From contig JAGWPW010000026.1 of NCBI GenBank assembly GCA_028870315.1, positions 1-44,887 of the forward strand: 44,887 nucleotides of DNA, read 5' to 3'. The DNA is from Sphingomonadales bacterium (lineage in GTDB: Bacteria > Pseudomonadota > Alphaproteobacteria > Sphingomonadales > Sphingomonadaceae). The notes beneath the pieces were generated by a model. It was not told where the DNA came from and did no database searches. It saw only the letters and a program-made list of their open reading frames with translations. Each line of letters begins with the position of its first letter. Position 1 is the first letter of the stretch. Both the position numbers and the translations under genes were made by a program. This document shows, piece by piece, positions 8,265 to 39,062 of the stretch.

Positions 8265-8281
8265 CGTTTCGATCTGAAACG
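8265..8281. promoter_or_regulatory. Palindrome upstream of marR, candidate operator
   Basis: CGTTTC, five bases, GAAACG: a perfect inverted repeat with 6-bp arms in the 174-bp gap between the thiolase stop and marR. Position fits autoregulation by the MarR protein. Confidence 0.4.
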
Positions 8282-30741: not shown

Positions 30742-30804
30742 CCACGATCGGCGAGCTTGCTCCTGCCACCCGATCATCCGGGAGGCGCGACGGGGGTGCA
30801 AACC

Positions 30805-31155
30805 ATGGACATGCAAAGGATCAAGGGGGCCAATCCGGGCAGCTTCGCGGCACCCGTCGGCGCGATCGACATCACCGAGGCGAACCGGCTGGTCGCGCAA
30901 TGCCTGGCCGCCGCGCAGTTCGGCGACGCCAGCGCCTATTTCGACCTCGGCGTTGCCTATTCGACCGGCAGTCACGGGGTCGAATGCGATCTCATCGAGG
31001 CGCATAAATGGTTCAACCTCGCCGCGGTCGGCGGCCATGAGGAGGCCAAGACCTGCCGCGCCGACATCGCCGAGGACATGACCGCGCGCGAGATCGCCGA
31101 GGCGCAGCGGCGCGCGCGCGTGTGGATCGCGGCGACCAGCCGCCGCGCGGCCTAG
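30805..31155 (+). CDS. Sel1-repeat small protein
   Basis: 116 aa from the ATG at 30805 (MDMQRIKGAN); a second ATG two codons later is also possible. It contains one Sel1-like repeat: ASAYFDLGVAYSTGSHGVECDLIEAHKWFNLAAVGGHEEAK, followed by a helical tail that ends in a Trp/Ala-rich stretch. No signal peptide or membrane segment. Sel1 repeats mediate protein contacts; the partner is unknown. A CtrA-like site upstream suggests cell-cycle control. A large inverted repeat begins at the stop codon. Confidence 0.8.
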   Translation: MDMQRIKGANPGSFAAPVGAIDITEANRLVAQCLAAAQFGDASAYFDLGVAYSTGSHGVECDLIEAHKWFNLAAVGGHEEAKTCRADIAEDMTAREIAEAQRRARVWIAATSRRAA

Positions 31156-31222
31156 TGGTCCGATTCTGACATTTGCATCCGCCATCGCCCGGGTAGTGTG
31201 CAAATGACAGAATCAATCCACT
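31154..31222. repeat. 24-base-arm inverted repeat, MITE-like or terminator hairpin
   Basis: Left arm 31154-31177 and right arm 31199-31222 match at 20 of 24 positions (GATTCTG and CATTTGCA are perfect), with a 21-base loop. It begins one base after the first base of the Sel1-gene TAG. There is no long T-run, so it is better explained as a small mobile repeat that may also stop transcription. Confidence 0.7.
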
Positions 31223-31328
31223 GGAGGCGCGGGCGCGCCGGTCAGCGAGCGCGGGGGCGATGGTCGGCGCGCCTCGCCTCTGCTAGGGGCTGGCTTCTGT
31301 TCGCAGCGATAGCGCAAGGAGCGTTCCC

Positions 31329-33059
31329 ATGTCGGATCATGCCGTTGTCTGGCCGCGCGCCGAAAGGCGCCTCAAGACGCGCAAGCTCGCGCGCCGGCTC
31401 GACACGCTCAAGGGCAAGACCATCGCCCAGCTGTGGGATTATCTCTTTGCCGGCGACGAGGTGTTCCTCGCGCTCGAAAAGAAGCTCGCCGAAACCTATC
31501 CCGACATCAGGTGGATCAGCTGGCGCGAGTTCGGCTCGACGCATGCGGTGAACGAGAAGGAGCTGCTCGCCTCGCTGCCGCAGCGCTTCAAGGAACTGGG
31601 AGTCGATGCCGCCATATCCTGCATGGCGTGCTGAGGGTCTTGCACGCCCGCCGTGCTGCGGGCGAGCGAGGCTTGTGAACGGGCCGGTTTTCCCACCAGC
31701 TCACTGACCTGCGAAGGCTTTCTGGGGCAGGCTGCGGCAACCGCGGTGGGGCTGGGCATGCCCAATCTGCCGGTGGCGATGATCGTCGGCCATCCCGGCG
31801 CGCAAAGCGTCGAGGAAATCCACGCCAACGCCACCGCCGTCACCGCCGCGCAGGTGATCGAGAATTTGACCGTGCAGCCGCCCGAGGCGGTGCTCGAACC
31901 CGAGCCGGGATCTAAGGACATCGTCTTTTCGGGCAGCTTCGAGCAAGTGAACGCGCATTTCTATGAGAACGAGTGGAGCGACGGCCTGCCCTTCGTCCCG
32001 CCGACCATGGAAAAGATCGCCGAATTCCTCCGCTTCACCCCGCGCCGGCCCGACGAGACGCTGGGCATCGTCCTTCCCGCCAGCCGCGCGGTCACCATCT
32101 GGTCGATCGCGGTCAACGGCGTGATGGCCGGCTGCCGGCCCGAATACATGCCGGTGCTGGTCGCGCTGGGCGAGGCGATGGCCGATCCCATCTATGGCGT
32201 CGAACACAGCGGCAATACCCCCGGCGCCGATACGCTGATCGTGCTCAACGGCCCGATCATCAAGCAGCTCGGCTTCAATTACGAGCAGGGCGCGCTGCGC
32301 GACGGCTTCCAGGCGAACAGCAGCGTCGGCCGCTTCTGGCGGCTCGCCTTGCGCAACATCGCCGGCTTCCTGCCGCACAAGACCGACAAGGGCACCTTCG
32401 GCAACACGTGGCGGGTGGTGCTGGCCGAGAACGAGGATGCGCTGGCGCGCATCGGCTGGCCGTCGAACGCCGCCGACATGGGCTTTGCCACCGGCGACAA
32501 CACCGTCACCATCACCCGCATGACCGGGGGCGATGTCATGCCCTCGGTCACCGGCGCGACGCCGCAGGCGATACTGCCCTATCTTGCCGACGGGCTCGCC
32601 AAGGAAACCGGCTGGGAGATCGCCTTCACCGTGGGCGGGCTGACCTTCGGCACCTCGCGCCCGGCGCTGGTGCTCAGCCCGATCCTTGCCGAGACCATCG
32701 CCAGGGCCGGCTGGAGCAAGGCCGACCTCAAGCGCGCGCTTTATGCCGAGGCGCGCATGCCCGCGCGCCGGGTCGAGACGATGATGAACGTCTGGACCGA
32801 GTTCAAGATCAACAGCCTCAAGCACCAGGTCAACCTCGGCCGCCTGCCGCGCGCCTTTGCCGAAAGCGACGATCCCGAACGGCTGGTGCCGATCGTCGTC
32901 GATCCCGAGGATTTCATGGTGCTGGTCTCGGGCGATCCGCTGCGGACCAACGCCTATGCCTTCGCGCATAACGGCTATCTGGGCTTCCCGGTGGCCAGGC
33001 GCATCGCGCTGCCGGACGATTGGGAGACGCGGATCGCGGAGATGAAAGGGCGCAAGTGA
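31329..33059 (+). CDS. UGSC-family selenoprotein, TGA at 31632-31634 read as selenocysteine
   Basis: 576 residues if the in-frame TGA (codon 102) is decoded as Sec; otherwise it breaks into 101- and 468-codon pieces in the same frame. The junction reads CMAC-U-GSC (Cys98, Cys101, Sec102, Cys105), the UGSC signature of a known (seleno)protein family that also has Cys forms. Sequence after the TGA continues the domain without break (FPTSSLTCEGF, NLPVAMIVGHPGAQS), and the GTG at 31653 that could restart has no ribosome-binding site. A good AAGGAG site serves the upstream ATG. From about residue 212 a second domain follows (FYENEWSDGLPFVPPT ... GVEHSGNTPGADTLIVLNG). Predicted redox or thiol chemistry; substrate unknown. 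A MaoC-like hydratase follows. Confidence 0.85.
31632..31674 (+). promoter_or_regulatory. Candidate bacterial SECIS element
   Basis: UGA is followed directly by a stem-loop: nine pairs (31635-31643 with 31666-31674, four of them G-U), an A-A mismatch, seven GC pairs (CGCCCGC with GCGGGCG) and the loop CGUGCU (31652-31657). Seventeen bases separate UGA and loop, and G is the second loop base; both fit published bacterial SECIS rules (16-37 bases; G in the first two). Confidence 0.75.
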
Positions 33060-36833: not shown

Positions 36834-38062
36834 TGTGCTTGCGCTCCGTCTGGAAGGATTTTCTCGTCGCGGCCGGCCGCGCGCCACGCGGTCCAGGCGA
36901 AAAGCGCGCCGAGCGCTGCCAACCCGGCCATGGCGAGGTAGGAGATCGCCGGGCCCTGCGACCACAGCAGCCCCGATCCGGCGGTCGAAACCGCCAGCAC
37001 CGCGCCGAACAGCACGGCGTTGAGCCCCTGCGCGGCGGCGCTGAGATTGCTGGTCACCCGCGCCGCGATCACCAGCATGATGCCAAGAATCGTGCCGGTG
37101 GCGCTGACCCCGTTGAGCAGTTGCGCGCCGACCAGTACCGCGATGCCCGGTCGCGTCGCCATGATCAGCCAGCGCGCCATCGCCGCCAGCGCGCCGAGCG
37201 CGATCAGCAGGCAGGGATCGCGGCCCCCGAGCAGCCTGGCGCCGAACCAGAAGGCGAGGATCTCGGCGCTGACCGCAAGCGCCTGAAGCAGGCCGATGAC
37301 CCCCGTCGCCAGCCCCTGCGCCGCCCACTGGATCGCGGCGAAGCTGTTGAGCACGCCATGGCTGCCCATCACCAGCGAGGCGGCGGCCATCGCCAGCAGC
37401 AGCGCGCGATCGCCCAGCACATCGCGCCAGCGCCCGGGCCGCGCCTCCTCGACCGGCGCCAGGCCGCGATCATCGGGAAGCAGCGGCACCACGGCGACCG
37501 GCAGCAGCAGCAGCGCCGCGACCATCGCCGGCAGCCAGCCGATGCCGGCAAGCCCGATCGCCGAGCCGGCCGCGACGTTGGAGACGACCACGCCGATCGA
37601 GCCCCACACCCGCAGCCGTCCGAAATCGAGCGCGTGGCTCCGCGTCGCGATCACCGCATAGGCATCGGTCAGCACCGGGATCTGGTCCCAGATGACCGAG
37701 AACAGGAGAAAGATCGCCGCCCGCGCGACATGCCCCGGTCCGCCGAGCAGCAGCAGGATCACCGCGGCCGAGCCCAGCGCGGTTGCGGCGATGGCGTCGC
37801 GCACCCGCGCGCGTCGCCCGGCCCAGGCGGAAAACGGCGCCACGGTGAGCAGGCGCAGGACCAGCGGAATCGCGGCGAGAAGCCCGATCTCGCCGGGCGG
37901 CGCGCCGCTTGCTTTCAACCACAGCGGCAGGAAGGCAAAAAAGCCGAAGTGCAGATAGAGCGCGAGGTAGAGCCCCGACACCTCGAATGCGAGCCGGGCG
38001 CGCGCCGGCGGGTTCGCGCCACCGCGCGTCACCGGCAACCGCAACGGTCCGATCACATCCAC
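36830..38062 (-). CDS. MFS permease (MFS_1_like, phenylpropionate/nucleoside-transporter type)
   Basis: 410 aa if started at the GTG at 38062, which has GGGGAG six bases upstream. ATGs at 38104 and 38113 lie inside the LacI-type operator and the presumed promoter, so they are unlikely. About 12 hydrophobic segments run from LYLALYLHFGFFAFLPLW to AMAGLAALGALFAWTA. SALDFGRLRVWGSIG resembles the motif of HcaT-like MFS_1_like permeases. It is coupled to the esterase gene at its 3' end and divergent from a second esterase. Substrate unknown. Confidence 0.85.
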   Translation of the reverse strand: MDVIGPLRLPVTRGGANPPARARLAFEVSGLYLALYLHFGFFAFLPLWLKASGAPPGEIGLLAAIPLVLRLLTVAPFSAWAGRRARVRDAIAATALGSAAVILLLLGGPGHVARAAIFLLFSVIWDQIPVLTDAYAVIATRSHALDFGRLRVWGSIGVVVSNVAAGSAIGLAGIGWLPAMVAALLLLPVAVVPLLPDDRGLAPVEEARPGRWRDVLGDRALLLAMAAASLVMGSHGVLNSFAAIQWAAQGLATGVIGLLQALAVSAEILAFWFGARLLGGRDPCLLIALGALAAMARWLIMATRPGIAVLVGAQLLNGVSATGTILGIMLVIAARVTSNLSAAAQGLNAVLFGAVLAVSTAGSGLLWSQGPAISYLAMAGLAALGALFAWTAWRAAGRDEKILPDGAQAQ

Positions 38063-38098
38063 ATCCGTCTCCCCAGCGACTCGCGCTATAGGGGCGAT

Positions 38099-38112
38099 TG
38101 ACATCGATGTCA
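38099..38112. promoter_or_regulatory. LacI-type operator TGACATCGATGTCA (site 1)
   Basis: A perfect 14-base palindrome between the divergent permease and esterase genes. On the plus strand it overlaps TTGACA (38098-38103). On the minus strand ATGACA is followed by 17 bases and TATAGC, so bound repressor would block the permease promoter. Confidence 0.8.
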
Positions 38113-38132
38113 TTCGAAACCAGAACCAACCT

Positions 38133-39062
38133 ATGCTCGATCCCGACATCGCCGCATTGCTCGGCCCTGCCGCACCCCCGCCCGCGCTTTCGCCCGATTC
38201 GATCGCGGACATGCGAGCGGGCATGCGCGCAATGGGCGGGGCGCTGACGGGCGCGAAACTGCCAGTGGTTCAGGACCATAGCGCCGATGGTGTCGCGGTC
38301 CGGCTCTATCGCCCTTCGGCCGCGCACGATCTGCCGCTGCTGGTCTTCCTCCATGGTGGCGGCTGGTTTCTTGGCGATCTTGATACGCACGACGCGATGC
38401 ATCGCCAGCTCGCGCGGCAGGCGGGCTGCGCGGTGCTGGCGGTCGCCTATCGGCTCGCGCCCGAGCACCGCTTTCCCGCCGGGCTCGACGACGCGCTGGC
38501 CGCGCTGCGCTGGGCGAGGCGCGAGGCGGCGAGGCTCGGCTGCGACGTGGCGCGCATCGCTCTGGGCGGAGAGAGCGCCGGGGCCAATCTGGCGGCAGCG
38601 GTCACGCTGCGGCTGCGCACCGCGGGCGAGGCGCAGCCGCTGTTCCAGTTGCTGGTGCATCCGGTGACCGACATGCGCTTCGCGCTGCCTTCGATCGGCG
38701 CGGTCGCGGCACCGGGGCTGGAGCGCCGCTATCTCGAAGCGTGCCGGGCGCTGTACCTCGGCGCTGCCGACCCCGACGATCCGCTGGTCTCGCCGCTGCG
38801 GGCCGGATCGCATGCCGGTCTGGCGCCGGCGATCGTCCTCACCGCCGAGGAAGATCCGTTGCGTGACGATGGCGAGTTCTACGCAGCCGCGTTGGTGCGG
38901 GCGGGGGTCGAGACGCTGGCCTGCCGGCTGCCGTCGCTGCCGCACGGCTTCTTGTTCCTGCCGGTCGCCATTCCCGCGGTCGCAAACGCCTATGCGTGTA
39001 TCGCGCGGTTGATCCTGCGCCATTTTTCGCGTGACAGCGGCGCGCTTCTCGACAACGGCTGA
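38133..39062 (+). CDS. HSL-type alpha/beta hydrolase (esterase)
   Basis: 309 aa, cytoplasmic (no signal peptide). FLHGGGWFLGD oxyanion motif, YRLAPEHRFPAG, GGESAGANLAA with the Ser nucleophile, EDPLRDDG with the acid, and SLPHGFLF with the His. The start lacks a good ribosome-binding site and the leader is short (about 20-30 bases after TTGACA), so translation may be weak or leaderless. It is 3 bp from the lacI gene and under site 1 of the operator set. Confidence 0.9.
   Translation: MLDPDIAALLGPAAPPPALSPDSIADMRAGMRAMGGALTGAKLPVVQDHSADGVAVRLYRPSAAHDLPLLVFLHGGGWFLGDLDTHDAMHRQLARQAGCAVLAVAYRLAPEHRFPAGLDDALAALRWARREAARLGCDVARIALGGESAGANLAAAVTLRLRTAGEAQPLFQLLVHPVTDMRFALPSIGAVAAPGLERRYLEACRALYLGAADPDDPLVSPLRAGSHAGLAPAIVLTAEEDPLRDDGEFYAAALVRAGVETLACRLPSLPHGFLFLPVAIPAVANAYACIARLILRHFSRDSGALLDNG

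Follow-up and report, generated by a model that had tools for sequence, protein, structure and literature searches.

An in-frame TGA as the predicted selenocysteine codon of a two-domain UGSC-family protein in a sphingomonad

The contig JAGWPW010000026.1 of a Sphingomonadales bacterium (assembly GCA_028870315.1), whose whole stretch of 44,887 nucleotides we call the window, carries on its forward strand a long reading frame, 31329-33059, with a single TGA inside it. We consider it very probable that this frame is one gene for a two-domain selenoprotein of the UGSC family, in which the host's SelB and tRNA-Sec would decode UGA codon 102 as selenocysteine (Sec, U), probably under the guidance of a hairpin behind the codon. 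Sec insertion at codon 102, taken by itself, is predicted with near certainty. What the sequence itself shows is a frame without other breaks, a TGA that recurs, letters able to form a hairpin and a cluster of sel genes; from these we infer the insertion of Sec and, with less assurance, what the protein may do. The features of the gene are the following.

31329..33059, + strand: predicted selenoprotein gene of the UGSC family with 576 codons, a single TGA inside and the stop TGA at 33057-33059 (from translation, PF24696 and relatives)
31316..31321, + strand: AAGGAG, Shine-Dalgarno-like, 7 bases 5′ of ATG 31329 (from the sequence)
31632..31634, + strand: in-frame TGA, codon 102, predicted selenocysteine (same TGA at codon 102 of relatives)
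31635..31673, + strand: hairpin resembling a selenocysteine insertion sequence (SECIS), core stem 31646-31651 with 31658-31663, loop 31652-31657
31653..31655, + strand: GTG codon 109 in the hairpin loop, start of truncated database proteins
31404..31886, + strand: UGSC domain at the N-terminus, residues 26-186 (modelled by AlphaFold with Cys as residue 102, predicted local distance difference test, pLDDT, 90.7)
31890..33056, + strand: C-terminal partner domain (C-domain), residues 188-576, model of the domain alone with pLDDT 88.8

From ATG 31329 the TGA at 31632-31634 is the sole interruption, and the frame then stays open up to 33059. With the TGA read as Sec the product has 576 residues and places U102 within SCMACUGSCTPAV. 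The GC content at third codon positions is 0.85 upstream of the TGA versus 0.88 downstream. The first start after the TGA is GTG 31653, and the sole Shine-Dalgarno-like letters before it, GAGGG at 31633-31637, lie 15 bases off and are badly placed. The Pfam family PF24696 (UGSC) matches residues 6-181, spanning the TGA, with 93.1 bits (gathering cut-off 25). The original prediction had described two frames of the same phase split by one TGA, a second half lacking a ribosome-binding site, and domain sequence running through the TGA, and this observation is confirmed.

The same prediction had named selA, selB, tRNA-Sec and selD as the genes for which the genome should be searched. A genome without SelB and tRNA-Sec would have refuted it, and this is not the case: the host assembly (3.13 Mb, 99.6% complete) contains all four genes, clustered on the single contig C164:

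C164 17723-19033: selA, 557 bits, above cut-off
C164 19099-20028: selD, 420 bits, above cut-off
C164 20407-22284, on the other strand: selB, 370 bits, above cut-off
C164 22738-22830: tRNA-Sec, 69 bits against a cut-off of 47, also called as tRNA-Sec with a TCA anticodon by ARAGORN

How constant is the TGA among relatives? A scan of named genomes gave 22 loci with relatives that are 41-81% identical by best segment. One of them (L033) ends short of codon 102, and in the 21 readable loci the codon is TGA in 20 and TGC in one (L037), so the expectation that homologues carry either U or C at this position is confirmed. The U-G-x-C motif is kept by most relatives, and L049 has U-S-T-C. The longer signature CxxC-U-GSC, which had been claimed for the protein, is present in the window as CMAC-U-GSC, but its upstream CxxC is not a constant feature: most of the relatives read have Ser or Gly instead of C98, and some lack C101. 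Named close relatives, 77-86% identical, belong to Sphingomonadales, Sphingomonadaceae or Novosphingobium, which fits the earlier sphingomonad label.

The TGA form also accompanies the Sec machinery. We used a family sample of 249 genomes and, given the sphingomonad host, a class sample of 385 genomes of Alphaproteobacteria. In the family sample selA occurs in three genomes, and the TGA-form UGSC gene occurs in the same three (the window genome, G172 and G066). The remaining UGSC genes of this sample have Cys, as seen at the codon level in L047, L048, L053 and L054 and from the motif in L050-L052 and L055; no selA match was obtained in their genomes, except for the window's own, which holds L055. 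In G066, from another genus of the family, the genes for UGSC, a selD-like protein (AIRS domains), a thioredoxin reductase-like (TrxR-like) protein, selA, selB and tRNA-Sec follow in this order on one strand. The UGSC variant of this genome (LUSTC, about 30% identity) is divergent, yet has the TGA at the same place. In the class sample a fused TGA UGSC gene was found in 15 genomes (the window, L056-L068 and L085), and in each of them codon 102 was confirmed to be TGA. All 15 have selA, compared with 56 of 385 genomes overall (Fisher p 4.6e-14, a value that overstates independence, because the genomes share ancestry). When all matches at E 1e-20 are taken, lone C-domains included, selA is present in 35 of 38 genomes, the exceptions being G259, G570 and G607; the last has a Cys form (L070).

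A stem-loop stands directly 3′ of the UGA, as in bacterial selenoprotein genes with their bacterial SECIS (bSECIS) elements, and it is a putative SelB-binding site. The 44 bases from the TGA (31632-31675) fold at -27.5 kcal/mol with a z-score of -4.0, and 0 of 200 shuffles are as stable. When the 39 bases behind the window TGA were recoded synonymously, none of 500 variants folded as stably, and the synonymous-codon test was strong (at most 10 of 500) in 10 of 23 TGA sequences. The core CCCGC-CGUGNU-GCGGG is kept across 35 aligned TGA sequences. Pairing, outer pair included, holds in 96.7% of cells versus at most 53.9% with the partner slid. The outer core pair is GC in 13, AU in 8, GU in 3 and unpaired in 6 of 30 distinct rows, with two-sided GC/AU changes in 8. 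The core stem is absent in all six folded Cys relatives (L037, L047, L048, L053, L054 and L070). The Rfam search of the hairpin gave no SECIS match.

The window protein carries U102-G-S-C105, the Sec/Cys-then-G-x-C pattern of the UGSC family, and its assignment to this family in the original prediction is right by Pfam. The match to the NCBIfam equivalog NF041046, also named UGSC, remains below its cut-off (40.9 versus 125 bits) and speaks against membership in that narrow group. By these profile scores the gene is filed in the wider family PF24696, outside NF041046. In the model of the N-terminal UGSC domain the fold is of (beta-alpha)5 type and resembles Rossmann or flavodoxin folds; residue 102 sits after strand 94-100 and before helix 105-118. 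For the C-terminal domain, residues 188-576, profile searches of Pfam and NCBIfam gave no match. Its invariant residues in alignment A1 are N263, N330, R335 and E367-N368-E369, and C269 is nearly invariant.

The two domains also occur as separate adjacent genes (L048, L050-L053, L055 and L071). At the split loci L072-L084 the UGSC gene has a TGA in 12 of 13 cases, none having been found in L077; in these 12 class genomes (L072-L076, L078-L084) the TGA UGSC gene, with ..LAD-U-GSCT.. or similar, lies downstream of the C-domain gene. No UGSC domain was seen in L069, which is at a contig edge. On plasmids, where 5 regions were inspected out of 24 matching records, the UGSC domain adjoins the C-domain in all five, with TGA in L106 and L109 and Cys in L107 (a haloarchaeon), L108 and L110. 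The UGSC domain and the C-domain therefore travel together, split or fused. The window's genome itself has a second UGSC gene, L055 (G000:C9, 782-2484), with Cys in the motif ANCGSCT, which overlaps the start of a separate C-domain gene. In L106, the conjugative IncP plasmid p2-T1 of Acidovorax sp. T1, the UGSC gene has a TGA, and transposase genes lie a few kb off. The use of this gene would depend on host Sec machinery elsewhere.

Our best reading of the function, drawn from motif, fold and neighbouring genes, is a selenol enzyme that would be fed by a TrxR-like protein and would act on a small acid. In this reading the mouth of the Rossmann-like domain would hold a selenenylsulfide/selenol pair made up of U102 and C105 of the UGSC motif. 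A small substrate, perhaps an organic acid, would be bound and acted upon by the C-terminal domain. A thioredoxin-reductase-like flavoprotein whose active site is of the CATC/CAAC type would reduce the oxidised selenenylsulfide again. We slightly favour the view that the reductase is recycled by this flavoprotein, and propose the organic-acid substrate only tentatively. A TrxR-like gene is present in 18 of 24 loci tested, including L017, the source of the query, and its Pyr_redox_2 match reaches 128.8 bits in L022 and 111.5 in L017. In the window's genome a TrxR-like copy, 64% identical, with the motif CATCD, is found on contig C165 at 37856-38779. Among the plasmid regions, organic-acid or coenzyme A (CoA) genes lie near the UGSC/C-domain pair in all four that are annotated, the fifth being without annotation. 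These are tripartite tricarboxylate binding proteins in L106 and L108; CoA transferase, CoA ester lyase and a tripartite ATP-independent periplasmic (TRAP) binding protein in L107; and malonyl-CoA decarboxylase and synthase in L110. Such neighbours hint weakly at organic-acid metabolism, as genes of this kind are common. A permease read as DctM-like, by inspection only, occurs in six loci (L026, L028, L029, L031, L036 and L038). The neighbours searched in L018, a locus recorded under Novosphingobium strain MW5, include cytochrome P450, short-chain dehydrogenase/reductase (SDR) and aminotransferase genes and do not narrow the function, and the gene downstream of the UGSC gene in the window has a FAS1-type dehydratase domain.

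A number of observations weigh against the reading proposed here. Joined frames with at least 100 codons upstream and at least 300 downstream of a TGA number ten in the window (67.8% GC), the UGSC gene included; hence the frame pattern alone means little and the case rests on other evidence. By homology, that is, by PF24696 reaching across the TGA and by the same TGA recurring in other genomes, the UGSC frame is more than chance; by its pattern alone it is not. In the hairpin, the other five of the six core pairs are invariant and uninformative on covariation, and the protein sequence dictates part of the core letters. The recoding test left 13 to 155 of 500 recodings as stable in 13 of the 23 TGA sequences (L019, L020, L026-L031, L034-L036, L038 and L049), and the Cys sequences, with 76 to 478 of 500, overlap these weaker ones. 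The core stem is absent in L085 and L086, two distant forms that have the TGA. In G259 (locus L072, 77% complete) a split TGA form is present without a selA match, and a second match to the tRNA-Sec model, 52.2 bits and above cut-off, is located on contig C88 of the host. As for the function, the fold matches of the C-domain model are weak, 6 of the 24 loci have no TrxR-like gene within the available stretch (L030 ends 1.35 kb past the gene), and the TrxR-like gene of the host lies away from the UGSC gene, on another contig.

The other nine TGA-joined pairs of long frames in the window, for example those at 8275, 18281 and 37470, are plausibly chance frames at 68% GC.

Are the fused proteins visible in databases? 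The homologue list comprises the best 120 of 4513, and among these 119 are 431-470 residues long and only one, P0015, a Cys form, has full length. Of the same best 120, 111 begin at residue 109, 13 of them checked by alignment. Gene callers seem to start at the GUG in the loop of the SECIS-like hairpin, and for this reason the predicted fused selenoprotein would stand in databases mostly as a headless fragment. The truncation by standard annotation, which the original prediction had anticipated, is thus a systematic loss with an explanation, and 119 of the best 120 of 4513 homologues are without the active-site half. One entry, P0020, is already named "UGSC family (seleno)protein [Novosphingobium sp.]".

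These short forms could also be taken at face value, with translation stopping at the UGA and restarting at GTG 31653 to give products of 101 and 468 residues. The start of 111 homologues at codon 109, the existence of the C-domain as a separate gene in other lineages and the poor, badly spaced candidate ribosome site GAGGG would all suit such a pair of proteins. However, a restart there would lie within the UGSC domain, where PF24696 runs over residues 6-181 and the model is one fold across the GTG; the UGSC genes of split loci, standing apart from the C-domain gene, retain their own TGA in 12 of 13 cases; and the Cys relatives P0015, L037, L047 and L054 read straight through. Two separate products are therefore very improbable. 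The TGA is one base from a Cys codon, and with Cys relatives known (L037, L054 and P0015) a sequencing error over a real TGC or TGT, or a fresh nonsense mutation making a pseudogene, might come to mind. The same TGA nevertheless stands in 20 of the 21 named-genome loci that can be read and in 15 genomes of the class, the window's among them; the window's frame is otherwise intact and its host has Sec machinery, so the chance of such an accident is negligible. For decoding of the UGA without SelB and tRNA-Sec, e.g. as Trp by a suppressor, we found no supporting point, no search aimed at suppressors having been made; the TGA gene goes with selA, relatives have Cys as the substitute, and the gene itself ends in TGA 33057-33059, near the ends of its relatives. 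We give this explanation practically no weight.

At the level of function, the protein may instead be an ordinary thiol-redox stress protein, thioredoxin-like or of peroxidase type, with the C-domain merely as scaffold. A passage of a 2026 review places UGSC beside thioredoxin-fold proteins, and the TrxR-like neighbour gene would suit this role as well. The (beta-alpha)5 order of the model, with Foldseek's own match list as the structural comparison, hints at a fold other than that of thioredoxin. We regard the stress protein as unlikely.

Two further elements lie just 5′ of the UGSC gene. At 30757-31155 there is a Sel1-repeat-like protein (22.9 bits, below the Pfam cut-off of 30.7); Sel1-like proteins are mentioned in a figure legend on alphaproteobacterial sel clusters in a 2021 paper. 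At 31151-31225 there is a long palindrome consisting of GATTCTGACATTTGCA and its near-exact inverse copy, with starts 37 bases apart. The half-site GATTCTGACATTTGCA, with at most one mismatch, occurs 37 times in the genome versus 0 times for the reversed control, many copies being paired, which indicates a dispersed repeat family.

The UGSC family and its fusion form are already known, and the window gene is a further member. The family was described in the 2008 study of the Global Ocean Sampling (GOS) selenoproteome (PMC2398784), which also reports its fusion to a conserved domain named "Unknown_1", and passages of later work mention UGSC selenoproteins. Unknown_1 is likely the C-domain of the window protein. 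The window protein shares with the family (PF24696; NF041046; PMC2398784) the UGSC motif, Sec or Cys at the same site and the reported fusion form. It differs in being a long two-domain form, in its sub-cut-off NF041046 score and in a model that appears Rossmann-like rather than thioredoxin-like. The separate pairs L055 of the same genome, L048, L053 and the haloarchaeal L107 likewise have both domains adjacent on the same strand; unlike the window they consist of two genes with Cys in place of Sec, while other split pairs (L072-L076, L078-L084) retain the TGA. What is new is Sec use in probable sphingomonads, a conserved unclassified partner domain, a frequent TrxR-like neighbour and the cause of the database truncation. 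According to a 2016 paper (PMC4741004), none of the sphingomonads sequenced has selenoproteins; contrary to this statement, our data indicate that sphingomonads can use selenocysteine.

Both scanned copies of the TrxR-like neighbour resemble bacterial thioredoxin reductase, with TIGR01292 as best NCBIfam match and a CxxCD motif. They score 233 and 246 bits, under the equivalog cut-off of 343, and may therefore represent a separate branch of dedicated enzymes. The three parts, Sec domain, partner enzyme domain and TrxR-like donor, give this little-understood selenoprotein family a setting that can be tested. Selenoprotein B of glycine and proline reductases (GrdB/PrdB) works with a selenol, is supplied by thioredoxin reductase and has a small acid as its substrate. 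A search of eight UGSC or C-domain proteins with PF07355 (GrdB/PrdB) reported no match at E up to 10, a range in which HMMER filters drop most matches above 0.1. The UGSC domain and the C-domain, split or fused, in Alphaproteobacteria, on plasmids of Betaproteobacteria and in haloarchaea, may possibly be halves of one undescribed selenoenzyme system that would reduce or cleave a small organic acid with a dedicated TrxR-like donor, which would make it an aerobic functional counterpart of glycine reductase.
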